Shown: one piece after another, positions 7,448-19,031 of the stretch
Layout: each line of letters opens with the position of its first letter
How positions within the stretch are numbered: position 1 is the stretch's first letter
Assembly: GCF_014284235.1 (NCBI RefSeq)
Contig: NZ_JACOGD010000005.1
Span: forward strand, 124,001 to 188,000
Direction of reading: 5' to 3'
Length of the DNA: 64,000 nucleotides
Source: Cognatundibacterium curvum
GTDB taxonomy: Bacteria > Pseudomonadota > Gammaproteobacteria > Burkholderiales > Burkholderiaceae_D
Program-made: the position numbers and the translations under genes
Notes under the pieces: model-generated
Told to the model about the DNA's origin: nothing
Databases searched by the model: none
What the model saw: the letters and a program-made list of their open reading frames with translations, nothing else

Positions 7448-8749
7448 ATGAGTTTTCATAAAAAATTTCTTTCTTCCTCCATCTTATCTGTCATTGATCA
7501 GGGCCTGCTCAGCGCACTCAATTTTCTGATTGGCGCCTTATTAATCCGTTTAGTAGCCAAAGAAGACTACGGCTTATATGGACAGCTGTATGCGGGTGGT
7601 TTGCTGGCAGGTTTGCTGGTGGACTCCTGGATTGCCGGGCCGCTGACCACAGTGACCAGTGTGGTCAGCGAAAACACGCGTCGCCATTTGCTGCGTACTT
7701 TCTGGATGCGCCAGATTATCTGGACTTTAGTGATGGCGGTGATCGCCTTTGTGGTCGTCGAATTTATTCCTGCAGCCACCCATTATGGTGAAAAAAGCTG
7801 GGGGCTGGGCGCAGCATTTGGCCTGTACGTGATCGGCAATGGCTTGCGTGAATACGGCCGCACTGTCGGCTTTATCCAGTCTGCGATTCCTCAGGTGCTG
7901 CGTCAGGATGTGGTGTATGTCTTGCTGGTGCTGACCGGTCTGACCGGCTTACTTCACTTTGAATGCCTGGCGTTGCTGCCCTTGTTTCTGGTCTTGTCCG
8001 CGGCCTCCCTGCTGGCTGCTTTATACGGACGCGGCGCACTGATGCAGCTGACAGCGACCCAGGTAGCGATCGAAACGCATGACCAGGAAACCCTGCGTGC
8101 GCATCAGGAAACGATACGTAGTCATGGACGCTGGGCGGTCGCCGGTGCGCTGGTGGGATGGCTGTCCAATTACAGTTATGTTTATTTGTCTGGCGCCATA
8201 CTCGGTGCGGCAGCGATTGCGGATCTGAATGCCTCGCGTCTGTTGCTGATGCCGATTCCGCTGGCAGTGGCAGCCTGGACCCGGGTAGCCCGGCCGGAAG
8301 CCGGGCGTCTGATGCAGGAGCATAACTGGGCAGGCTTGCGTAAGCTGACTTTGATGTCGGTGGTCGGTATTGAGTTGGTGGTATGCAGTTTTGTGATTGT
8401 GCTTTTGTTGGCATTACCCTGGTTGCACGAGCATTTCATTGATAAAAACAAATACGCCGGACTGGATTTGCTGATCATGTTGTGGGGAGTCTATTTTGCG
8501 GTGAATGCAGTACGTACTATCGGCACTTCATGGCTGATGAGTGGCGGCGCATTCCGCTCCATGTTCAAGCTGGGCATGGTGACGCTGGTACTGGTGATTG
8601 CGATCACTACGCTGACCATGCCTTACTGGGCCAGCGCGGGTGCGATTGTGGCCTTAATCTGCGTCGAGGTGTTTGAGACGGTGGTGGTGTGGCGCTTTAT
8701 TCTGCCTTCGTTGCGGAGGCAGGCAGAAAACGCGCTTGCAAATGGCTGA
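7448..8749 (+). CDS. Polysaccharide/O-antigen flippase-like membrane protein (MATE/MOP superfamily)
   Basis: 433 residues with about 12 hydrophobic segments and the start typical of Wzx-like proteins ('SSSILSVIDQGLLSALNFLIG', 'YGLYGQLYAGGLLAG'). Members move lipid-linked glycans or similar amphiphiles across the inner membrane. No glycosyltransferases are next to it. Its 3' end overlaps by 53 bases the 3' end of the convergent hydrolase gene of the aminoacyl-carrier operon, an arrangement that suggests the two units have evolved side by side. A role in exporting a product of that operon is inference. Confidence 0.8.
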   Translation: MSFHKKFLSSSILSVIDQGLLSALNFLIGALLIRLVAKEDYGLYGQLYAGGLLAGLLVDSWIAGPLTTVTSVVSENTRRHLLRTFWMRQIIWTLVMAVIAFVVVEFIPAATHYGEKSWGLGAAFGLYVIGNGLREYGRTVGFIQSAIPQVLRQDVVYVLLVLTGLTGLLHFECLALLPLFLVLSAASLLAALYGRGALMQLTATQVAIETHDQETLRAHQETIRSHGRWAVAGALVGWLSNYSYVYLSGAILGAAAIADLNASRLLLMPIPLAVAAWTRVARPEAGRLMQEHNWAGLRKLTLMSVVGIELVVCSFVIVLLLALPWLHEHFIDKNKYAGLDLLIMLWGVYFAVNAVRTIGTSWLMSGGAFRSMFKLGMVTLVLVIAITTLTMPYWASAGAIVALICVEVFETVVVWRFILPSLRRQAENALANG

Positions 8750-10520
8750 CCAGCAGATCGCTCACATATTGTTGCGCCCATAGCGGTGTGAACGTGTGGT
8801 CTGCGCCTTTGAATATGCTTAGACGTATCCGCTCACTGTCACCCAGCAAAGCGCCATGTCGCCCCAGATTTTCTGTCATCAGGTCGACACTGGCGTCACC
8901 CGCATCCATAATCAGCATGATTTCCACGCCGCGCGCATCGAGCTGGCGGAACTGACGCGCCACCTTGCCTAAAAAATGGTGATTCTGGACTAGTTTCCCG
9001 ATCAAAGCCTGAGAAATGTTACTCAGGCGTTTGGCCACTCTTGCACTGAGTTTGCGCATGATCTGACGCAGTTTGATTTCACCTTTAAACAAGCGCTTCC
9101 AGGTATGCAGATTGCGTACTGCCTTTACATAGAAATGGGTGGATTTGATCGATTCCTGTTTGCGCGCCGTAATGGTGTCGCCCTCATGCCATTCAAACAC
9201 CAGCTGATTCATCAGCACGACACCACGCACCCTGACATCCTTGAGTGCACTCAGATACGCGAAGTAGGCCCCCGAGCATAAACCAGCCACCACAAAGCCT
9301 TCGCAATACACGCTGTTTTCCATGAAGTGCATGGCATGTTGGATATCATCAACGCCGCTATCGGCATACACATCGTTTTCCCGGTCTTGCGGCGTGGGCT
9401 TGCTGTAGCCGATGCCGGCTTTATCAAAACGCAGCACCGGAAAGCCAGCCTGGGCCAGGGCACGCGCAAAGCGCACGTACAGCCTATGCGTTCCAACCCG
9501 GTGATTGGCGCCTATATTACACAGTAAAACCGCAGGCAAGTGCGGCGTGATCGCCTGCACAGGCAGCGTTAACACGCCGCTGTAGCCAGAAAAAAACACC
9601 AACTTTTCTTCGATCTGTACCTGCCCTGTATTTAAAATTTTCCGGGTCTCTTTGGGGACACTGGGCATGACTGTTTTACTGCCTATCGGAAAAGCAGGGC
9701 TGAGCCAGGACACGATTTCGTGCAGGATCTCATCCGGCAGCACGCTTTCATAGGCATCACCCGGCATCATGGCGGCATAACCCGGCGTGCTGCTCAGGGT
9801 GACAGGTACGCCGGCATCCTGCCAGTGTGCGCACAGTTTTTCTTCCTGAGCGCTCACATCATCACGTGCGATCAGCAATACCGGACAGGCCGGAACCGTC
9901 ATGTTCATCATGTCCAGTTTACCCAGACTGGCACGCATATCGGCATCGAATATATAGCCGGTCAGCTCATCTTCGCTCACTTGCCGCGTACTGTCCGTCT
10001 CTGTTGCACTGCTGGTCGCACCCATGGTGCGCAATACCCGTAATTCACGGCTGTAGGCGCGGCCTGAAATGACCGGTGCCAATCCTATGAATGCGCTGGC
10101 CTTGCAATCCTGCGTAACGCTGGCAGCCAATAAGGCGCCCAGTCTTAAACCAAACAGTGCAATCTGACTGACCTGCGCTATGTCACGCAAGGTCTGACTG
10201 GCAGTGCAAATATCCTGCTGCCACTGTAGTATGCGGTTACCAGCCTGATCGGCCGCATCGCCGGTATTGCGGTAATCAAAAAACAGCACATCGAAGCCAG
10301 CCCGTGCCAGCCGTTCCGCCAGATGGCGGTAGCTGCGGTAAGCCACCATATACTCATGCCCAAATGGTGCGCATAGCACCACGCCGCACTTCCGGCTGCC
10401 CCCCGCTTCACGCTGATGCGCGGGATGGTACCAGCCCATCAGTGGCGCTTCCGGATCGCCGAACCAGAAAGCTTCTGGTCTGCACAGAATTTGCTGGCTT
10501 GGAAATTGTTGCGAATTCAA
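8697..10520 (-). CDS. Double alpha/beta-hydrolase-fold protein with altered nucleophile elbows
   Basis: 607 residues made of two hydrolase-fold units, about residues 15-275 and 305-600. Unit 1 keeps 'CAPFGHEYMVAYRSYRHLAE' and 'FDYRNTGD' but its nucleophile elbow reads G-L-R-L-G (124-128), with Arg where Ser is expected; this resembles the exosortase-A-associated hydrolase 2 family. Unit 2 has 'RFDKAGIGYS' and an elbow G-L-C-S-G with Cys415 as possible nucleophile, and ends with 'FKGADHTFT', a good catalytic-His motif. So unit 1 is probably non-catalytic and unit 2 may be a Cys hydrolase or acyltransferase. It is last in a seven-gene operon and starts 4 bases inside the glycosidase gene (ATGA). 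No signal peptide is seen. Confidence 0.85.
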   Translation of the reverse strand: MNSQQFPSQQILCRPEAFWFGDPEAPLMGWYHPAHQREAGGSRKCGVVLCAPFGHEYMVAYRSYRHLAERLARAGFDVLFFDYRNTGDAADQAGNRILQWQQDICTASQTLRDIAQVSQIALFGLRLGALLAASVTQDCKASAFIGLAPVISGRAYSRELRVLRTMGATSSATETDSTRQVSEDELTGYIFDADMRASLGKLDMMNMTVPACPVLLIARDDVSAQEEKLCAHWQDAGVPVTLSSTPGYAAMMPGDAYESVLPDEILHEIVSWLSPAFPIGSKTVMPSVPKETRKILNTGQVQIEEKLVFFSGYSGVLTLPVQAITPHLPAVLLCNIGANHRVGTHRLYVRFARALAQAGFPVLRFDKAGIGYSKPTPQDRENDVYADSGVDDIQHAMHFMENSVYCEGFVVAGLCSGAYFAYLSALKDVRVRGVVLMNQLVFEWHEGDTITARKQESIKSTHFYVKAVRNLHTWKRLFKGEIKLRQIMRKLSARVAKRLSNISQALIGKLVQNHHFLGKVARQFRQLDARGVEIMLIMDAGDASVDLMTENLGRHGALLGDSERIRLSIFKGADHTFTPLWAQQYVSDLLVSHLQARFLPASATKAE

Positions 10521-13084
10521 ACCTGGCTCCCATTGTGTGCGTGATGAATCGAGGTACTTGTTTCAGCCGGTGGCCGCAGCCGCTGGACTGACAGCAGATT
10601 CATCGCCTGCAGTTGTACTTTGACCTGCCCGGGCGCGGCATGCAGGCGCAGTCTGACGGTATAGACGACACCCGGACTCAAATGAAAATAATTATCCAAC
10701 GCATCCGCACCACTGACTTGTAGCTGCACCCCATGTAAGAAGCGGCGGCAGCTTAAATGCAGACGCAGCATGCCATTGCCTTCCGGCTGCCAACCGGCAT
10801 CCAGTCCGGCATCGCTTTCCATACCGGCTAAGCGCGCCGCCGGAAAATGATGATCATGGCTGCAGGCTGTGCTTTCACCATCCCGTGTCAGATGGACGCT
10901 GGCCAGATGATGGCCGGGCGGGCCGAAACGGTAGGCATAGCTGGTATCCATGAAATGCGGCAGCAAGGCATCGGCACGTAACATGATGCTGCTGTGCGGC
11001 GCTACCTGAACTGGCACGCTGATGTCCGCGATGTTGGTATCGGCATGACGTGTCAGACGCAGATGCAGACTGCCATGCAGGCTGCTGGCCGCATCATTTC
11101 TGACGTGGATGGCCAGACCGTTCAGGCCTTCATCCGTGAAGAATACCAGCTGCGCTGCCATTGCCCGTTTGACGAAGTAATAGGCTGCTTTCGGCTGGCC
11201 CGATGCATCGACCAGACCCCAGCCTGCACCAGCCCACAGATCGCGCCAGAACCAGATCAGCGCACCATGACAAGCGGAACCGTGACGACGCCATTCATGC
11301 AGAGCCTGTGCCATGACTTCACCGCTAGTCAGGCGTGACAGTGCGATGTAGCGTTCACGTTCGGCATAGCGCAGCCGCGCCGGGTCTAATCCATATAATT
11401 GCTGCAAATAGTGATCGCGTACATCTTCAAAATCCCAGCCTGTGCCATGGTCACGTGGCACGGCTTTTTTCCAGGATGGATGCAGACCTGGGAAGTCGCC
11501 CTGTCCAGACATGCTGTCGAGCAGACTATCTTCCGGCATATTGGAAAAACCCAGGCATTCGGAAGTGAAGCGTACACCGCTGCGACGTGCGTCATCCAGC
11601 GGGCGCAAATAGGCGCCAACGCCAAAATAATGCGCCACGCCGCTGTCGACCTGAAATGGCATCACGCCGCCGCTGGGGCTGGAGGGCCAATAAATACAGT
11701 CAGGCCGCAGCTCCTGACAAATTTGCGGCAAGCTTTCACTGAAAAATGGATTGCTCCAGTTTTCACGTGGCTGGCCCAGCATGGCGGCCTGTTGTTCGAT
11801 TTCGCTATTGCCGCATAAGACGGCGAGACAGGCAGAAGTTTGGGTGCGGCTTAAAAAAGATTTTGCTTCCTGACAGACTTGCAAACCGAAAGCGAGGTCG
11901 GCTACAGGATAGTCCATATTGGCAAACATAAAGTCTTGCCAGACCAGGATGCCGAGTTCATCGCACAGCCGGTAAAAGTGCGCGTTTTCATACACCATGG
12001 TACCGACTACGCGCAGCATATTCATACCGGCGTCACGCGCCAGTGTCAGCATCTGACGCTGCTTTTCTTCGCTTGCATTCAAAGACAGCAGATCGGCTGG
12101 TGTCCAGCAGGCACCGCGACAGAAAACCGGTACATCATTCACATGCAGTGAGAAATTGCCATCGCGGGTATCAACATGGATGTGGCGGAAACCAAGCTCG
12201 CCGAGTGCAATCAGGCTTTGTCCGCGTGCCGTGGTCAGTGCCAGGCAGGCGGTATATAACTGTGGTCTGCCATGCGTATGAGGCCACCATAACTGCGGTG
12301 AGGGAAACAGCAATTCGCCTTGTATAGCTGTGCCGCAGTCGCTCGTCTGGTGCAGATCCAGTTGCTGGGTATAGCTGCCTACATGCAGACTGGCTTGCAG
12401 CAGCGGCTCATCGCTGACACAGCGAGCAGAAAAACTGACCACGCCATCCTGCGCTGACAGCCGCGTCTGCAGTTGCACTTCGCTCAGGCGTACAGGTGCC
12501 GCATACTCTATCCAGATATCGCGGTAGGGTCCGACCGGTGGCACCGGTGGCGACCAGCCCGGCATACGCCCCAGCAGACTGGTGCGTAACCAGCGCAATT
12601 GCTGTTGTTCGACCAGGCGGGTTTTCCAGCGCGGACGCGGGCGTTTTTTTGCCAGTTCAGCATTCAATGCGCAGCAACGTATGGCCAGCGTACCCTGACC
12701 ATGTACCTCGAGTTCTTGCAAATTCAGCGTATAGCGCAGGAACATATTATCGGTACGCAGCAGCAGTCTGTCATTCCAGAAAATTTCTGTATGCGTGGCT
12801 AAACCATCGAAATGCAGAAACTGCGCCTCAGCTGGCAAATCCAGCTGGCAGCGGAACCAGACATCCTTATCATCCAGCTGTAAATCCTGAAACTGAAACT
12901 CACCCGCCTGTGCCAGTGCTGACAGGGCGGTACACGGAAGCTGTACCGGATAGCCATTCAAAAATTCCTGTTCCGCCTCACTGGCCAGCGCATAGCGTCC
13001 GGCATGGACGATCGCCATTTGCCACGCTGCCTGCAGCGCTTGCAGGCTAGGCGCAGCGGTGGCTGAAGTGTAATGCCCGTTCAT
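10517..13084 (-). CDS. Glycoside hydrolase family 2, beta-mannosidase-like
   Basis: 855 residues. Order: N-terminal jelly-roll sugar-binding domain (about 30-195, with 'HFDGLATHTEIFWND'), immunoglobulin-like domain (about 195-300), then a TIM barrel with 'VPVFCRGACWTPADLL', 'GMNMLRVVG' and 'LGILVWQDFMFAN'. Catalytic residues fit the beta-mannosidase subgroup: acid/base E428 in 'CGNSEIEQ' and nucleophile E509 in 'FTSECLGFSN'. The length matches bacterial beta-mannosidases. No export signal is visible, so it would act in the cytosol, odd for a scavenging enzyme but sensible for trimming or transglycosylating an internal intermediate. It overlaps both neighbouring genes by 4 bases. The true sugar is unknown. 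Confidence 0.88.
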   Translation of the reverse strand: MNGHYTSATAAPSLQALQAAWQMAIVHAGRYALASEAEQEFLNGYPVQLPCTALSALAQAGEFQFQDLQLDDKDVWFRCQLDLPAEAQFLHFDGLATHTEIFWNDRLLLRTDNMFLRYTLNLQELEVHGQGTLAIRCCALNAELAKKRPRPRWKTRLVEQQQLRWLRTSLLGRMPGWSPPVPPVGPYRDIWIEYAAPVRLSEVQLQTRLSAQDGVVSFSARCVSDEPLLQASLHVGSYTQQLDLHQTSDCGTAIQGELLFPSPQLWWPHTHGRPQLYTACLALTTARGQSLIALGELGFRHIHVDTRDGNFSLHVNDVPVFCRGACWTPADLLSLNASEEKQRQMLTLARDAGMNMLRVVGTMVYENAHFYRLCDELGILVWQDFMFANMDYPVADLAFGLQVCQEAKSFLSRTQTSACLAVLCGNSEIEQQAAMLGQPRENWSNPFFSESLPQICQELRPDCIYWPSSPSGGVMPFQVDSGVAHYFGVGAYLRPLDDARRSGVRFTSECLGFSNMPEDSLLDSMSGQGDFPGLHPSWKKAVPRDHGTGWDFEDVRDHYLQQLYGLDPARLRYAERERYIALSRLTSGEVMAQALHEWRRHGSACHGALIWFWRDLWAGAGWGLVDASGQPKAAYYFVKRAMAAQLVFFTDEGLNGLAIHVRNDAASSLHGSLHLRLTRHADTNIADISVPVQVAPHSSIMLRADALLPHFMDTSYAYRFGPPGHHLASVHLTRDGESTACSHDHHFPAARLAGMESDAGLDAGWQPEGNGMLRLHLSCRRFLHGVQLQVSGADALDNYFHLSPGVVYTVRLRLHAAPGQVKVQLQAMNLLSVQRLRPPAETSTSIHHAHNGSQV

Positions 13085-14076
13085 GTGGAAGTTAACTGAT
13101 CCAGACTATGTTGTAAGGCGTGCATACCCTGATCCCAGTGCTCTGCCATCTGGCTGACCAGCGGCGCTAAATCAACTGCGCGCTTGCCCATGACGGCTCT
13201 GGCAGTTTTCAGCAGCAGGGTTTTACAGCTTTCGGAAATCGCCTGAAACTCCTGTGCTGCCACACTGAAATCGTTACCGGTACTGGCTTGCAGCCAGTGC
13301 AAATGCTGGCTGCCGAGGCTGAAGCCGGCACCCAGCTGGCGCAGGGTGGCAAATGCATACGCATGATAAGCTGCCATGCCCTGTTCTTTGAGCGCTTCCA
13401 CATCCTGTACAAAAACCGGCAGGAATGCAGAAACCGGGTTGCCGTGTGGACGGCGCGCCAGATGTTTGCGCAGCAGTTGCAATGCGATCGCGGCAAGCTC
13501 AGGCTCGGTTTTGATTTGTACCCGGTCCAGGCGCACGAACTCAGCAAACAAAGGCATAAAAGCCGGATCATAGGGCTTGCCGAGGCGGAAGGTCTCAATG
13601 AAATCCTCGCCCTGCAATTCATGGTAACTGCTATTGTGGAAATAGCCCATGCGCTGCTGCTCCAGGTCGATTTCCTGTATTGCTATCGTGGTTTTGACGT
13701 GATTGCTGCGATAGTCAGTACCGGCCGTATCCGGAAGATAAAACGAATCGGTTTCGGTCAGCACCAGCCGCCCGCGTCTGAGCTGCTCACTTGCATTGGG
13801 CAGCAAACCGCGCCAGACATTGAGCTCCTGTACATCGATGCCGTATAGCGCAAACAAATCTTCATGCGGTGGCTTGTAAAACGTCCACTGGTCACCGTCG
13901 AAATCATTCGCAAATACCATAGACAAACAGGCCAGCGGATTGAGGCCTTGCGCATGCAAAACCTCAACCCAGACATCGATGTAGCAATTGGTTTCCGCCC
14001 AGTCGCGATCCGGACCGTGCAGACTGTGCTGGCGGTACTCGCTCAGTACGATAGGGGGCAGGGCGTGCAGAGTCAT
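13081..14076 (-). CDS. DUF1839 family protein
   Basis: 331 residues, recognised as DUF1839 from the conserved start 'ETNCYIDVWVEVLHAQGLNP', 'FANDFDGDQWTFYKPP', 'DLFALYGIDVQELNVW' and 'VLTETDSFYLPDTAGTDYR'. The family occurs almost only next to amino acid:carrier-protein ligases and their carrier protein, and has no established activity. Cys/His/Asp conserved near the N-terminus (C31 in 'TNCYID') could support transfer chemistry, which would make it a candidate aminoacyl transferase; this is inference. The gene overlaps the ligase gene upstream and the glycosidase gene downstream by 4 bases each. It is soluble, with no signal peptide. Confidence 0.85.
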   Translation of the reverse strand: MTLHALPPIVLSEYRQHSLHGPDRDWAETNCYIDVWVEVLHAQGLNPLACLSMVFANDFDGDQWTFYKPPHEDLFALYGIDVQELNVWRGLLPNASEQLRRGRLVLTETDSFYLPDTAGTDYRSNHVKTTIAIQEIDLEQQRMGYFHNSSYHELQGEDFIETFRLGKPYDPAFMPLFAEFVRLDRVQIKTEPELAAIALQLLRKHLARRPHGNPVSAFLPVFVQDVEALKEQGMAAYHAYAFATLRQLGAGFSLGSQHLHWLQASTGNDFSVAAQEFQAISESCKTLLLKTARAVMGKRAVDLAPLVSQMAEHWDQGMHALQHSLDQLTST

Positions 14077-14984
14077 AAGCCTAAAATATCGCGTGTCGCT
14101 GCAGGCCAGCCAGCGGTATCCATACCATGGGTTTTAAACAAGGCCATCACGATGCGTTCCAGACCAAAACCCAGGCAGGCGGTATGCGCCACTTCACCAT
14201 CGGCAGTCTGAATTTCAAACAATTTGCCGAAATGATCCTGATGGTAATTGAAGGAGCATACTGCGGTCGGTTTTTCCTGAGAGATGACAGGAATCACGAC
14301 TTCAAATTTCAATTGCTGTTCACGCTGATTCGCTGCCAGCATACGGCCACCACGGCCAAAGAAAGGATCAGAAGCGACTTCAGAGTGCGCAGGCAGTCCC
14401 AGCGATTGCAGGATATCGAGGCCACGTTGCAGCCACAGATCACGCCATGCCACCACCATATCCGGCGTACCTACGCGCACAAACTCGCGCACACGGAAGG
14501 ATTGCATACGGGTTGGTTCCGGCGAGGGTTCATTGCGGAATACCCAGTTTTGCATATCGACCAGACGACCGCCTTCGGGCAGGGTGCCGGTGAAGCTTGG
14601 ATATACCGGATAGCAGGCCGCTGGCGTCAGGCAGACGCCGGTCATGGTTTGCAGATGGGTCCAGGGACGGCCTTCATGCACATTTTCTATCAGTTCCTTG
14701 TGCTGGGCTTCATTGCCGGTAAAGCTGAATATGGTGCCCGCCAGCTGCGGGAAGGAGTCCAGATATTCGCTGCGTTCCAGCACTTTGCGGTCGAGGCAAG
14801 GCGGGAAGGACATGCGTGTTGCCTGATCGGCTGCCGCGACGCGCGAGACATAATCATCAAAGCGGCGCAGCACTTCTTCAAATACGGGGCCGCGGCCAAA
14901 TATGCCTTGTACGCCGACAGGAATAATATGACCGGCTGCAATCAGGTCATTGCTCAGTACTTCAGGAGAAAAATCGATAGACAT
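14073..14984 (-). CDS. Amino acid--[acyl-carrier-protein] ligase (class II aaRS homologue)
   Basis: 303 residues from ATG 14984, which has an AAGGAAG site at the right spacing; a further in-frame start at 15053 lies inside the upstream gene and lacks one. It is a shortened seryl-tRNA-synthetase-like catalytic core without a tRNA-binding domain. Class II motif 2 is 'VFRNEPSPEPTRMQSFRVRE' and motif 3 'LGFGLERIVMALF'. C124, E167 and C270 match in spacing the zinc ligands known from Bradyrhizobium glycine:carrier-protein ligase (E-to-C distance 103). Known members activate Gly or Ala with ATP and load it on the phosphopantetheine of a dedicated small carrier protein; such a carrier is encoded two genes upstream. 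Confidence 0.92.
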   Translation of the reverse strand: MSIDFSPEVLSNDLIAAGHIIPVGVQGIFGRGPVFEEVLRRFDDYVSRVAAADQATRMSFPPCLDRKVLERSEYLDSFPQLAGTIFSFTGNEAQHKELIENVHEGRPWTHLQTMTGVCLTPAACYPVYPSFTGTLPEGGRLVDMQNWVFRNEPSPEPTRMQSFRVREFVRVGTPDMVVAWRDLWLQRGLDILQSLGLPAHSEVASDPFFGRGGRMLAANQREQQLKFEVVIPVISQEKPTAVCSFNYHQDHFGKLFEIQTADGEVAHTACLGFGLERIVMALFKTHGMDTAGWPAATRDILGL

Positions 14985-14997
14985 GGCGCTTCCTTTA

Positions 14998-16161
14998 TCA
15001 GTCGTCTTTGAGAACCAGCAACAGGTTGGCATTAGTCGCCAGTATTCTGTCATTACCCACCATCAGCGCGGCAGACAGGCCGTCACGCAGATGACGGCTC
15101 ATGCTGAATTTGCTGTCATTTTTATAGGCCAGGATGCCGCAGATGGACAGCGCTTTAATCACGATTTGTGGCAAGGCCTGGGTCGCGTCCACTTTCAGAT
15201 TATTCATTTTGAGCGAATACGCAATCGAAGAAAGCGGGCCGGTAGCGGCATCGCTGGCAGCGGATAATTGTTCGTATTCAGTCAGGCAAGCCTGTACTGA
15301 AGTGCGCAGGCTTTGCAACATGCTGACTAATTCCGCCAGTCGCAGCGCCGTTGGCGGCACGGTGCCGGGATTGGATCTCGCTTGTCCGCGTACAAAGCTG
15401 CGTGCCTTGTTGACCGCCGCAGTGGCGCAGCCCAGCCAGCAACCGCCCCACAGCAGATGCGATACCGGCACTACAGTACGCGCAGACATGTCACCGAAAG
15501 GCACTTCCATAATCTGATCGCGATGGCCGCTGGCTGTCATCAGGAAGGGCGGGCTGCAAGTGCCACGCATACCCATGGTATCCCAGTTTCCTTTTTGCTC
15601 CAGCGTGTAATCTGCTTTGCGCACCAGAATCAGCGACTGATCGCTGTTGGCAGCGTCAGCATGGCGGCGTGCCGTAACCATCAAATCATCAGCCTGGGCA
15701 CCATAGGAAATCGTGGTCGCATCTTTCACCAGACTGAATTGATCGCCATTGAGCTCGACTGCGCAACGGCTGCGGCGCATTTCGCCACCGACACCGACTT
15801 CCGAGGTCACCGAAGCAATCAGATACTGATGCTTCACCAAGTCCTGCAGATATTGTCGGTACCAGGGGTGATCGGCAGCATGTTCGACCAGGGTGATGAC
15901 CTGAATCTGATGCATCGCGAATATCATGGCGGTGGCGGCACACTGACGCCCCAGAATTTCACAGATCTCCACTAATTCACTCAGGCTGGCACCTGCGCCA
16001 CCGAGTTCAACCGGTATATAGGCGCTCAGCAATTTTTCTTGCTTTAATGCGTCTATCGCTGCTTGTGGAAAACGTGCATCACGATCCACTGCATCCGCAT
16101 GGGGTGCAGCAAAGTCTTTGGCTATCAGGCGCGCTGTTTGAATGAGTGAAGAGGTTTGCAT
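14998..16161 (-). CDS. Acyl-CoA dehydrogenase family flavoprotein in aminoacyl-carrier operon
   Basis: 387 residues with the three-part fold of the family: N-terminal helices ('FPQAAIDALKQEKLLSAYIP', 'ELGGAG'), middle beta domain ('LIASVTSEVGVGG', 'GNWDTMGMRGTCSPPF') and C-terminal helical bundle. Homologues that act on carrier-bound amino acids are known, such as prolyl-carrier oxidases. The C-terminal position that is usually Y-E-G-T (with the catalytic Glu of medium-chain enzymes) reads 'MVGNDRIL' here, so the base is missing or elsewhere. It starts 2 bases after the carrier-protein stop and ends 13 bases before the ligase start. A substrate such as glycyl- or alanyl-S-carrier is inference. 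Confidence 0.88.
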   Translation of the reverse strand: MQTSSLIQTARLIAKDFAAPHADAVDRDARFPQAAIDALKQEKLLSAYIPVELGGAGASLSELVEICEILGRQCAATAMIFAMHQIQVITLVEHAADHPWYRQYLQDLVKHQYLIASVTSEVGVGGEMRRSRCAVELNGDQFSLVKDATTISYGAQADDLMVTARRHADAANSDQSLILVRKADYTLEQKGNWDTMGMRGTCSPPFLMTASGHRDQIMEVPFGDMSARTVVPVSHLLWGGCWLGCATAAVNKARSFVRGQARSNPGTVPPTALRLAELVSMLQSLRTSVQACLTEYEQLSAASDAATGPLSSIAYSLKMNNLKVDATQALPQIVIKALSICGILAYKNDSKFSMSRHLRDGLSAALMVGNDRILATNANLLLVLKDD

Positions 16162-16163
16162 GA

Positions 16164-16403
16164 TCAGGCGCTCAATTCTTCAACTGCAGCATGAATCGCA
16201 TTGATACTTTCAAATACGCTGCGTTTCAGCATACGGTCAGGGAATTCCAGATCGAAAGCGTCTTCGAGCGCCAGCATCACATTCACGCTGGCGTGTGAAG
16301 TCATGCCAGCTTCATACAAATCTGCATCATCAGACAGACTGTCGATGTCAGTGCTGAATTTACCTTGTTCTTTAAGAACCTGACGGATTTTTTCTTTACT
16401 CAT
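16164..16403 (-). CDS. Dedicated acyl/aminoacyl carrier protein
   Basis: 79 residues, acidic, four-helix carrier fold. The phosphopantetheine site is 'EAGMTSHASVNVMLALED' with Ser36 as attachment residue; Thr replaces the usual Asp of the D-S-L motif, as in carrier proteins that partner class II-synthetase-like ligases. A phosphopantetheinyl transferase gene lies directly upstream and overlaps its start by 4 bases. It is distinct from the fatty-acid ACP (no D-S-L-D/E motif), so it should be a private carrier for the amino acid loaded by the ligase downstream. Confidence 0.9.
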   Translation of the reverse strand: MSKEKIRQVLKEQGKFSTDIDSLSDDADLYEAGMTSHASVNVMLALEDAFDLEFPDRMLKRSVFESINAIHAAVEELSA

Positions 16404-16927
16404 GGTGTAACCTTTTTAGCGTTGAAATGGGAGGGGCGATAAACTTGACGCGGTCTGCGACCTTGAGTCTGCCTGGTTTGCCGGGTTGCAATTACCGTGG
16501 CTAACGCATATTCGTGCTCGTGACTCAGGCTGAGCGAGCAATGCAGGATGCCTGCCTGTCTGGCGAACAGAGATGCCGGTGGGTGCAAGCGGATAGAAGG
16601 AGACTTTCCTGCTGGACGTATTACTTCAATTGCACGCCACGGGAGTGCGCTGTTTTTGTCCAGACCCAGGATTTTCATCACGGCTTCTTTTGCAGCAAAA
16701 CGCGCTGCGAGACTGGCGTTGCGGCGTTCTGGTATGCCCGCACAGTCGTTTAATTCAGCGGCGCTGAAAACCTTGTCCAGGTAGCGTTGGCCGAACTGAG
16801 AAATGGCCTTGCCGACCTCAGGTATCCATACCAGATCGTTTCCTACCAGCAAACTATCATCCCGCTTGGCCTGTACATTACGGCAACAGCGAATTGAAAA
16901 ATTGGAGAAAACCGGAGCGCTGTACAT
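16400..16927 (-). CDS. AcpS-type 4'-phosphopantetheinyl transferase
   Basis: 175 residues. It moves phosphopantetheine from CoA to the serine of a carrier protein. The AcpS motifs are present: 'LLVGNDLVWIPEVGKA' (metal Asp in G-N-D-L), 'RYLDKVFSAAELNDC' and 'SLAARFAAKEAVMKILGL', then 'LSLSHEHEYALATVIA'. The core begins only near residue 27, so the N-terminus is longer than in housekeeping AcpS (about 125 residues) and the C-terminus has a basic tail; a later start is possible. It is the first gene of the operon and overlaps the carrier-protein gene by 4 bases, so it is likely dedicated to it. Confidence 0.88.
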   Translation of the reverse strand: MYSAPVFSNFSIRCCRNVQAKRDDSLLVGNDLVWIPEVGKAISQFGQRYLDKVFSAAELNDCAGIPERRNASLAARFAAKEAVMKILGLDKNSALPWRAIEVIRPAGKSPSIRLHPPASLFARQAGILHCSLSLSHEHEYALATVIATRQTRQTQGRRPRQVYRPSHFNAKKVTP

Positions 16928-17148: not shown

Positions 17149-17883
17149 TCAGAGCTTGTTGACGCTCTCCAGCAACTGATCCACAAAATCCCCATCCGCA
17201 TCATTAAAGCGCAGCCGCACCGGATACCAGTTGAGTCCAGGTGCGAGCCAGATATCGAGTTGCTGATCTTTGGAGTCATGCGGTGGCGCCTTGCTGATAT
17301 GGATGCACTGGTATTCTCCGAGTGCTGTGCGGATGGTTTCTGTACCAATAACTTTGAAGGTCCAGGTTTCTGCATCGCGGCGGCCGGCAACAAACATTTT
17401 CCATTCGCTGCCTGTCGTGAAGCGCGCACTGGCGGCCCTGGCCTGAGCCACCAGTTGCCAGGTCGCGCTGCTGCGATCCTGTTCCCCGCCTTTAATCGGA
17501 TAGGTTTCAGCTGAAGCGCTGAATTTTATTTTTTTATTCTGGCGTTCAAAGACAGTCTGGGTTTCGGGCTTACCGAAGCGTTTCTCTGTGAACAGTTCCG
17601 GTGCCAGACCCTGTTCATCTATGCTACCCTGACTGCTGGTGTTGAGGATTTTTCCAACCAGTACCGCACGGGTTTCGCTCTGTATGCTGTATTTTCCATC
17701 TTGCTGTTGCCAGCGCACCAGCGCTGAGCCGCCTATGTTTAAGCCGCTTTGTCTGGCCTTAATGCTGTATTGAAGTTCTGCCGCAGGTGCCAGCTGGGTG
17801 GCTGGAAAACTGTCTGCTGCTAACGCTGCCAGACTTTGCCAAAGACATATACCAAGCAGACTGCGGATGATTGCGTGAGACAT
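17149..17883 (-). CDS. DUF3108 domain protein, exported
   Basis: 244 residues. A signal peptide is clear (MSHAIIRSLLGICLWQSLAA, cleavage near A-L-A-A-D). The mature part is the beta-rich DUF3108 domain: 'LQYSIKARQSGLNIGGSALV', 'YSIQSETRAVLVGKIL', 'GEYQCIHISK', and the hallmark end 'LDIWLAPGLNWYPVRLRF'. The domain probably sits in the periplasm or outer membrane; its role is not known. The ATG overlaps the stop of the preceding paralogue by one base. Followed by an intrinsic terminator. Confidence 0.85.
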   Translation of the reverse strand: MSHAIIRSLLGICLWQSLAALAADSFPATQLAPAAELQYSIKARQSGLNIGGSALVRWQQQDGKYSIQSETRAVLVGKILNTSSQGSIDEQGLAPELFTEKRFGKPETQTVFERQNKKIKFSASAETYPIKGGEQDRSSATWQLVAQARAASARFTTGSEWKMFVAGRRDAETWTFKVIGTETIRTALGEYQCIHISKAPPHDSKDQQLDIWLAPGLNWYPVRLRFNDADGDFVDQLLESVNKL

Positions 17884-19031
17884 CAGGAACTTCCTTTCTC
17901 GGGGTTGAGGATGGCGGTCACATATTGACTGGTGACCGTACCATTCGATTCAGTATTACGGATTTGCACCGGATACCATTGCCAGCCTGGAGCCAGCCAG
18001 ATTTCCAGCGTGGAATTATATTTTCCGGCGCGCGGCGGACGGATGATATGCCAGGTCTCCAGCTCGCCCATGCGGGTTTTCAAGACTTCTTTGGCCTGTA
18101 CCTGAAACAGGAATTCCTGCGCCTCGCGGTCTTCAGCCACCTGTACCCGCAATTGCTGTCCAGCCTGAAATAACTGCGGTGAACCTTTACCAAGTGCACT
18201 CAGTTGCAGGAAAATACTGGCACGGTCTTGCGCGCCAGCCTGTAAAGCGGTGCTGCGGTTGCTGGATGAGAAACTGATGGTCTGGCTGTCGTGTTGAAAA
18301 TGGGTGGCGGTCTCGCTGCGGTTACGCCGTTTCTCACTCATGGTCTGCGGCTGTAAACCAAATTCTGTCCAGTTTCCCTCGCTTTGCATCTGATACAAAT
18401 TTAATGTAGTGAGCAACAAATCAAGCCCGGCCTGGACTTTCACCTGATAACGGCCATTCTGAATATGAAACGCAATTTCACCCACCCCATAAACCGGATT
18501 TTTTCCCGGACTTTCGCTGACCAGCTTAGTCTTTAATACGGCGCTGTCCGGTGCTATCGCCGCATAGCCATGTAAGCTCAGACTTTGATCAGATTCGGTC
18601 AGTGGTGTCAGCACCGTGACCGGATCGAGCGTGATACTGCTGCTGAGCTCATTGAGTTGATGGAGCGAACCGGTTTGCGCACTTGCTTCCGATACCGTAC
18701 TTGCAGCGCCGATATTCTCGCTCAAGCTGATAATGGCCGCAGGTGGTGCAGGCATGGCCTGACTGCGCGCTGTGATCTGGGGCTGTTTACTTTCACCTGC
18801 AGGTGCACGTGGTGGTGGAGTCGGCGCAGCCCTTGCTGTAACTGTTGGCTTGACAGTCAGTTGCACCGTCACTGGTGCCAGCTTAGGGCTGACCGCTGGC
18901 GCAGGCCGTATGGCTGGTGCACCCCATTGCCACAGCAGCAGATGGCCCGCCAGCGCCAGGCCGGCAAACCACAGGTAGTACATGCATCCGGGCGGCGTCG
19001 CGCTCATCATCTGGCTGGGTGTGAAAGACAT
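17883..19031 (-). CDS. DUF3108 domain protein with membrane anchor and Pro-rich linker
   Basis: 382 residues. Layout: a short N-terminus, one transmembrane segment ('MYYLWFAGLALAGHLLLWQW', about 17-36), a Pro/Ala/Thr-rich linker (about 40-100, TonB-like in composition), then a C-terminal DUF3108 domain ending 'LEIWLAPGWQWYPVQIRN'. The same end motif occurs in the next gene, so the two are tandem paralogues differing in their N-termini. The stop overlaps the downstream start (TGATG), so they are coupled. This layout suggests an inner-membrane protein whose domain spans into the periplasm. Function unknown. Confidence 0.85.
   Translation of the reverse strand: MSFTPSQMMSATPPGCMYYLWFAGLALAGHLLLWQWGAPAIRPAPAVSPKLAPVTVQLTVKPTVTARAAPTPPPRAPAGESKQPQITARSQAMPAPPAAIISLSENIGAASTVSEASAQTGSLHQLNELSSSITLDPVTVLTPLTESDQSLSLHGYAAIAPDSAVLKTKLVSESPGKNPVYGVGEIAFHIQNGRYQVKVQAGLDLLLTTLNLYQMQSEGNWTEFGLQPQTMSEKRRNRSETATHFQHDSQTISFSSSNRSTALQAGAQDRASIFLQLSALGKGSPQLFQAGQQLRVQVAEDREAQEFLFQVQAKEVLKTRMGELETWHIIRPPRAGKYNSTLEIWLAPGWQWYPVQIRNTESNGTVTSQYVTAILNPEKGSS

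Follow-up and report, generated by a model that had tools for sequence, protein, structure and literature searches.

Ligases that load glycine or alanine onto carrier proteins are in print as relatives of the enzyme considered here (PMC5370406), and the role of amino acid:[carrier protein] (aa:CP) ligases was still called unknown in the pertinent part of a 2022 review (PMC9437257). A note added in proof to a 2010 paper (PMC2922099), which deals with Agrobacterium Atu2574, described a neighborhood of a SerRS-like ligase, an acyl carrier protein (ACP), a redox enzyme, a conserved uncharacterized protein, and a glycosidase, and predicted that an amino acid is ligated to a sugar as an amide. Lincosamide synthetase comprises an amino-acid loader (LmbC), a carrier (LmbN-CP or CcbZ-CP), and a papain-fold condensing enzyme (LmbD or CcbD); CcbD joins carrier-bound proline to the amino group of a thio-octose, the amide being formed by a ping-pong mechanism that uses a Cys (PMC12945683). 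Here, we compare with these systems a seven-gene operon at 8697-16927 of a 64,000-nucleotide stretch of Cognatundibacterium curvum DNA (contig NZ_JACOGD010000005.1, positions 124,001 to 188,000; hereafter the window). Six of its genes make up a cassette that recurs across phyla, and one of the six encodes DUF1839, a candidate condensing enzyme.

We lean slightly toward regarding these six genes as a cassette that is complete in itself and forms amides in the manner of lincosamide synthetase. Both systems would combine an amino-acid loader, a carrier, and a papain-fold condensing enzyme, and in six cassette genomes the loader appears, as in lincosamide assembly, to be a stand-alone adenylation protein. 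The cassette differs in that its loader is usually a relative of aminoacyl-tRNA synthetases (aaRS), in the permuted catalytic triad of DUF1839, and in the absence of sequence similarity. It also has three further members by the gene content given in the lincosamide descriptions at hand: a flavoenzyme of the acyl-CoA dehydrogenase fold (ACAD), a glycoside hydrolase of family 2 (GH2), and a double alpha/beta hydrolase. A literature search turned up no study of this gene combination; even so, the first-pass annotation of this DNA was too strong in calling the pathway undescribed, since the neighborhood and its amino-acid-to-sugar role were proposed in 2010. Evidence from folds, residues, or an exchange of loaders has no place in the 2010 note. 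The central idea is that of 2010, and the present analysis adds to it the cross-phylum cassette, the exchange of loaders, a fold for DUF1839, and the evidence from residues. The genes of the window are as follows.

16400..16927, minus strand: AcpS-type phosphopantetheinyl transferase (PPTase); PF01648 at 60 bits, TIGR00556 over its cut-off; accessory, here only in some Undibacterium-type loci
16164..16403, minus strand: carrier protein of 79 amino acids, Ser36 as phosphopantetheine site; NF005480 at 111.4 bits (cut-off 72)
14998..16161, minus strand: ACAD, without the usual catalytic Glu (V368)
14073..14984, minus strand: aa:CP ligase with a class II aaRS core; NF005479 at 423.9 bits (cut-off 357); structures of Bll0957, 4h2w/3mey
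13081..14076, minus strand: DUF1839, papain fold, with C31, T130, and H147; proposed amide-forming condensing enzyme; PF08893 at 364 bits
10517..13084, minus strand: GH2 of beta-mannosidase type; nucleophile E509, acid/base E428 after Ser427; GH2 N-terminal domain at 55 bits
8697..10520, minus strand: double alpha/beta hydrolase with a TTG start; unit 1 with R126 and no nucleophile, unit 2 with C415/D542/H575; Hydrolase_4 and Abhydrolase_1, one per half
7448..8749, plus strand: converging membrane protein ("flippase"); neighbor only in Undibacterium-type genomes and not counted as part of the cassette

All seven open reading frames (ORFs) of the operon lie on the minus strand. The ligase ORF is open from 15053, but the ATG at 14984 is preferred as its start because AAAGGA precedes it; with that start, the junctions in transcription order are a 4-base overlap, gaps of 2 and 13 bases, and three further 4-base overlaps, which bears out the placement and spacing first described for these genes.

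The conservation of the cassette was assessed in 58 loci with 59 DUF1839 copies, consisting of 40 named loci from a DUF1839 scan of genome contigs, 15 loci from a phylum sample of 398 genomes, two same-genus genomes, and the window; some loci are short, cut by contig ends, and single loci are cited below by handles beginning with L. ACAD is present in 57 loci, carrier and GH2 in 56 each, ligase in 52, and hydrolase in 43, with some of the gaps falling at contig ends. The order carrier-ACAD-ligase-DUF1839-GH2-hydrolase is kept in Proteobacteria, Planctomycetota, and Verrucomicrobiota, being seen again in Undibacterium, Azospirillum, Pleionea, and metagenome-assembled genomes (MAGs) of the latter two phyla, and the plasmids of Azospirillum sp. 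B510 and Mycetohabitans rhizoxinica carry the same gene order. Enough flanking sequence is available for 44 DUF1839 copies. Of these, 42 share a single same-strand chain with GH2, and 43 share one with some other member of the cassette (L063, with no GH2, and a lone second DUF1839 copy in L068 are the exceptions); the hydrolase is contiguous with the chain in 30. Because this order recurs in several phyla, the cassette is beyond chance; mirror-tree correlations (r 0.65-0.95) are uncorrected for shared ancestry and add little weight. A search for the seven genes elsewhere, suggested as a check on the operon, therefore upheld six of them, in order and across phyla, and showed the PPTase to be local.

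As a marker of the cassette, DUF1839 is not rare. It occurs in nine of 25 genomes of the window's genus (the window's own included), in none of the 16 other genomes of the order covered by the same scan, in 111 of 249 genomes of one family of that order, and in 16 of the 398 phylum-sample genomes. The ligase exceeds its cut-off in 28 genomes of the phylum sample and lies below it in 16 more; all 16 DUF1839 genomes belong to the 28.

The aminoacyl-carrier chemistry proposed from the first inspection is supported by the fact that the ligase and the cognate carrier encoded alongside it both exceed curated cut-offs. Ligase residues C147, E190, and C293 are invariant in 52 of 52 copies and align with a Cys/Glu/Cys set in Bll0957 that we take to be zinc ligands, while carrier Ser36, correctly located from the start in a G-M-T-S motif, does not vary among the 56 carriers aligned. 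By analogy with its relatives, the ligase would load the carrier with a small amino acid, Gly or Ala. Six loci lack a ligase between ACAD and DUF1839 (L036, L042, L046, L051, L054, and L062), and NF005479 was found nowhere in those six genomes; it was present in a seventh, ligase-bearing genome scanned alongside. L054 encodes a stand-alone adenylation protein (TIGR01733, 361 bits, cut-off 317) with relatives at 58-78% identity in the other five ligase-less genomes, whereas in three gammaproteobacterial genomes that have the ligase, the closest protein shares only 31-33% identity with it. The adenylation gene lies directly before the carrier gene in L054 and L062, and away from the cassette in four of the six. 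Five of these genomes are MAGs, so that the ligase may be missing from any one of them through incompleteness; the sixth, L051 (Aliikangiella marina), comes from an isolate. That one enzyme activating amino acids takes the place of another supports the view that the carrier is loaded with an amino acid. A substrate code read by eye from the six adenylation proteins was set aside as too weak.

Loci without DUF1839 point to a further division within the cassette. Twelve phylum-sample genomes have an over-cut-off ligase and no DUF1839, and six of their loci were fetched (L093-L098). ACAD adjoins the ligase in all six and a carrier is recognized in five (not in L094), as in the cassette; in contrast to the cassette, the carrier is on the opposite strand, and DUF1839, GH2, and hydrolase are absent from the six loci. 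Their ligases score 335-364 bits, compared with 456-511 for the 52 cassette ligases, on a profile built from those same 52. The pairing of ACAD with the ligase in such loci indicates that ACAD belongs with aminoacyl-carrier loading itself, and that DUF1839, GH2, and hydrolase form a further layer; it likewise supports the earlier suggestion that the flavoprotein acts on a carrier-bound amino acid. By eye, L094 and L095 also adjoin a gene resembling a pyridoxal-phosphate-dependent sulfhydrylase.

In classical acyl-CoA dehydrogenases, the Glu of the YEGT motif is the catalytic base. The YEGT Glu of 8i4p corresponds in a profile alignment to ACAD residue 368. All 57 copies from cassettes have V or I there, and the two other alignment rows, which are L040 paralogues, have P and E. 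Given this lack of the classical base, oxygenation appears more likely than alpha,beta-desaturation, and V or I at this position fits, without proving, the monooxygenation already guessed in the 2010 note (PMC2922099). The place of a second classical base, of the isovaleryl-CoA dehydrogenase type, was judged by eye and carries no weight here.

A 2023 survey describes DUF1839, from modeling, as a papain-like protein whose C-(T/S)-H triad is swapped (PMC10318531). Among the 59 copies, C31 and T130 are each found in 57 and H147 in all. An AlphaFold model (predicted local distance difference test, pLDDT, 94.9; predicted template modeling score, pTM, 0.92) has 18 PDB matches at E<=0.001, with TM-scores of 0.50-0.62 over the whole chain; all are AziU2-U3, CtaG, or CcbD chains, and the next match lies at E 0.04. 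CtaG is proposed to be a peptidyl transferase between carriers (PMC6772006). By its modeled fold, DUF1839 groups with carrier-dependent condensing enzymes, the permuted triad being the difference, which supports transfer by DUF1839, one of the two candidates for that step named earlier (the other being the hydrolase). A literature search on the name DUF1839 found one paper, PMC10318531, which makes no link to CcbD, CtaG, or AziU2-U3 in the text covered, PF08893 having been sought only in that paper; the model-based assignment to this group is new.

The two operon copies of DUF1839 without Cys31 come from genomes that hold a second, intact copy. Thirty genomes of one family were examined, with genus g31 supplying 29; two copies are present in 24 and a single copy in six, and two-copy genomes of other genera (e.g., g30) lie outside this set save one. 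In all 24 two-copy genomes, Cys31 and H147 occur together with T or S at 130 in one copy, and in 23, nearly all of one genus, the other copy lacks Cys31 (that of L169 keeps it). Five of the six single-copy genomes retain Cys31. This distribution supports a requirement for Cys31, with one clear exception (L160), and suggests that the Cys-less copy may be a pseudoenzyme partner of the intact one. In L143-L159, L166-L168, L068, and L067 with L010, the Cys-less copy lies in the operon and the intact copy converges on it nearby, usually beyond GH2 and in one genome on another contig.

The best PDB relatives of the GH2 protein are the beta-mannosidases 5n6u and 6bye. All 51 copies retain the nucleophile E509, and their acid/base residue is E in 47 cases and D in four. 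The acid/base motif, however, is S-E in 46 copies, T-D in four, and N-E in one, compared with N-N-E in 6bye; an ordinary beta-mannosidase was rejected on this loss of N-E, the nucleophile notwithstanding. According to the passages of PMC12243196 on this motif, N-E becomes S-D in exo-beta-glucosaminidases, where Ser tolerates the C2 amine. We take the altered motif as a hint that the GH2 substrate may be a C2-modified, perhaps amino, sugar. The claim that GH2 lacks an export signal holds to the extent that its N-terminus is not strongly hydrophobic, as judged from the hydropathy maximum alone (1.02 in the first 45 residues, versus 2.49 for the flippase). In all 43 aligned copies of the double hydrolase, R or G occupies the nucleophile position of unit 1, while unit 2 has Cys415, D542, and H575 each in 42 of the 43; Cys415 would suit acyl transfer.

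Computation shows which genes make up the set, how well they are conserved, and which folds and active-site residues their products have; from this we infer substrates, an order of steps, an acceptor, and a product. The aaRS-like ligase, or the stand-alone adenylation enzyme in some genomes, would charge the pantetheine thiol of the carrier with a small amino acid, and ACAD would then alter the carrier-bound aminoacyl group, more likely by oxygenation (e.g., N-oxidation) than by desaturation. Cys31 of DUF1839 may next accept the acyl group and pass it on to an amine. An amino sugar in beta-glycosidic linkage would most likely supply this amine, as suggested by the analogy with CcbD and by the one GH2 motif. 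GH2, changed at its C2-contact site, could subsequently take a sugar off that glycoside in the cytoplasm, and the double hydrolase, through Cys415 of unit 2, might perform a last acyl transfer or hydrolysis.

Several observations weigh against this scheme. The superpositions of DUF1839 on AziU2-U3, CtaG, and CcbD are loose (root-mean-square deviation 5.6-7.4), and its triad is permuted, with T130 at the canonical His place and H147 at the third. A DUF1839 profile found no PDB sequence up to E 10, and sequence homology to solved structures was rejected accordingly; LmbD, as reported in PMC4351081, likewise had no sequence similarity against databases in 2015. Two of the six single-copy genomes keep C31 without T130 (L161 and L162), and L160 (6734-7798) has a single DUF1839 with Ala for Cys in a locus in which ligase and GH2 are unrecognized. 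The best fold matches of ACAD (model pLDDT 94.9) mix dehydrogenases and oxygenases with no winner: short-chain dehydrogenases, the monooxygenase TdsC, the acyl-ACP dehydrogenase TcsD, the nitrososynthase DnmZ, and KijD3. S-E also occurs in GH2_14, a subfamily with beta-galactosidases (PMC12243196), and is hence no proof of an amino sugar. Some plasmid sets are incomplete, the chain of Caballeronia grimmiae ending after GH2 (without hydrolase) and that of Rhizobium binae after DUF1839 (without GH2 and hydrolase). Finally, a search for recurrent extra neighbors found none in more than six locus groups and gives no pointer to the acceptor.

The same loading and DUF1839 chemistry could instead decorate the cell envelope, the acceptor being a polymer such as lipopolysaccharide or exopolysaccharide. 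This is close to the cell-surface-sugar proposal of 2010 (PMC2922099), agrees with the glycan processing suggested in the DUF1839 section of PMC10318531, and is consistent with the apparent glycosyltransferases that surround L051 and L063 by eye and with the resemblance of the hydrolase halves to exosortase-A-associated hydrolases. We nonetheless consider it rather unlikely, as the cassette has no constant neighboring family, the hydrolase scores fall below cut-off, and the GH2 N-terminus is not strongly hydrophobic. The exosortase-A-associated families (TIGR03098, TIGR03100, TIGR03101) offer a similar set of ligase, carrier, and paired hydrolases, as seen in L040, but all scores are under the curated cut-offs (for the hydrolase halves, 143.1 of 168.45 bits against TIGR03100 and 99.6 of 202.75 against TIGR03101), and membership in that cassette was rejected for this reason. 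A second cassette in L040 (390-5332) has an adenylation protein, a weak carrier match, another ACAD-fold enzyme, and two separate exosortase-A-like hydrolases: the same logic without DUF1839 and GH2.

Two other readings change the task of DUF1839 itself. It might couple the modified amino acid to a non-sugar amine, with GH2 stripping a temporary sugar mask; its fold relative CtaG is proposed to move a hydroxybenzoyl group to a carrier-bound peptide, by the account in PMC6772006. With no glycosyltransferase or amine-forming enzyme among the cassette members, we regard such a pathway as improbable. A thioesterase or amidase role for DUF1839, in an operon that degrades an amino-acid-bearing glycan, would accord with the papain fold and with the presence of a glycosidase and a hydrolase-like protein, but ATP-driven carrier loading presumably serves synthesis, as is usual, and the cassette members include no uptake system; degradation therefore seems very unlikely.

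The remaining genes of the window's neighborhood appear to be local. The membrane-protein gene at 7448-8749 converges on the hydrolase gene with a 53-base overlap, and its product has no Pfam match and a sole NCBIfam match, NF058658, at 19 bits against a cut-off of 720. It occurs in 12 of the 58 loci, all Undibacterium-type, and in none of the other 46, some of them short. The PPTase is at the cassette in eight of 58 loci, one of them (L033) a Burkholderiales MAG contig with a 75% identical DUF1839, and the window's own genome has five PF01648 matches, the operon PPTase included. Both were rejected as core parts. From the first-pass annotation, aminoacyl-carrier chemistry, the flavoprotein step, transfer by DUF1839, and a conserved gene set are supported, while the flippase as part of the system and the PPTase as a core part are not, and the word "undescribed" is too strong. 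The closest named loci are those of Undibacterium crateris and U. rugosum (DUF1839 identity 97% and 95%); the former is now listed under Cognatundibacterium, family Oxalobacteraceae. Upstream of the operon, at 17149-19031 of the window, lie two adjoining secreted-looking proteins, the first with a DUF3108 match at 78 bits. Elsewhere, a lipoprotein-like family lies near the cassette in six gammaproteobacterial loci (L042:7558-8229, with relatives in L048, L053, L054, L061, and L064). In Cupriavidus metallidurans CH34, an ORF beside a second DUF1839 near the cassette (L091:10040-11638) contains ILAGGAGTRLW, which to our eye presumably corresponds to a mannose-1-phosphate guanylyltransferase motif.

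What aa:CP ligases are for has been a question since 2010, and the structural model now gives DUF1839 a concrete candidate chemistry, carrier-dependent amide formation, with named residues. Together with the natural replacement of the loader, those residues reduce the question to a short in vitro experiment. The cassette may, tentatively, represent a class of natural products in which an aaRS-derived ligase, rather than a nonribosomal peptide synthetase, feeds an oxidized (possibly N-oxidized) amino acid to a permuted papain-fold enzyme for coupling to an amino sugar that a cytoplasmic glycosidase unmasks, although we hold this fuller version to be doubtful. If this fuller version is true, the cassette would be a widespread proteobacterial and planctomycete counterpart of lincosamide assembly.

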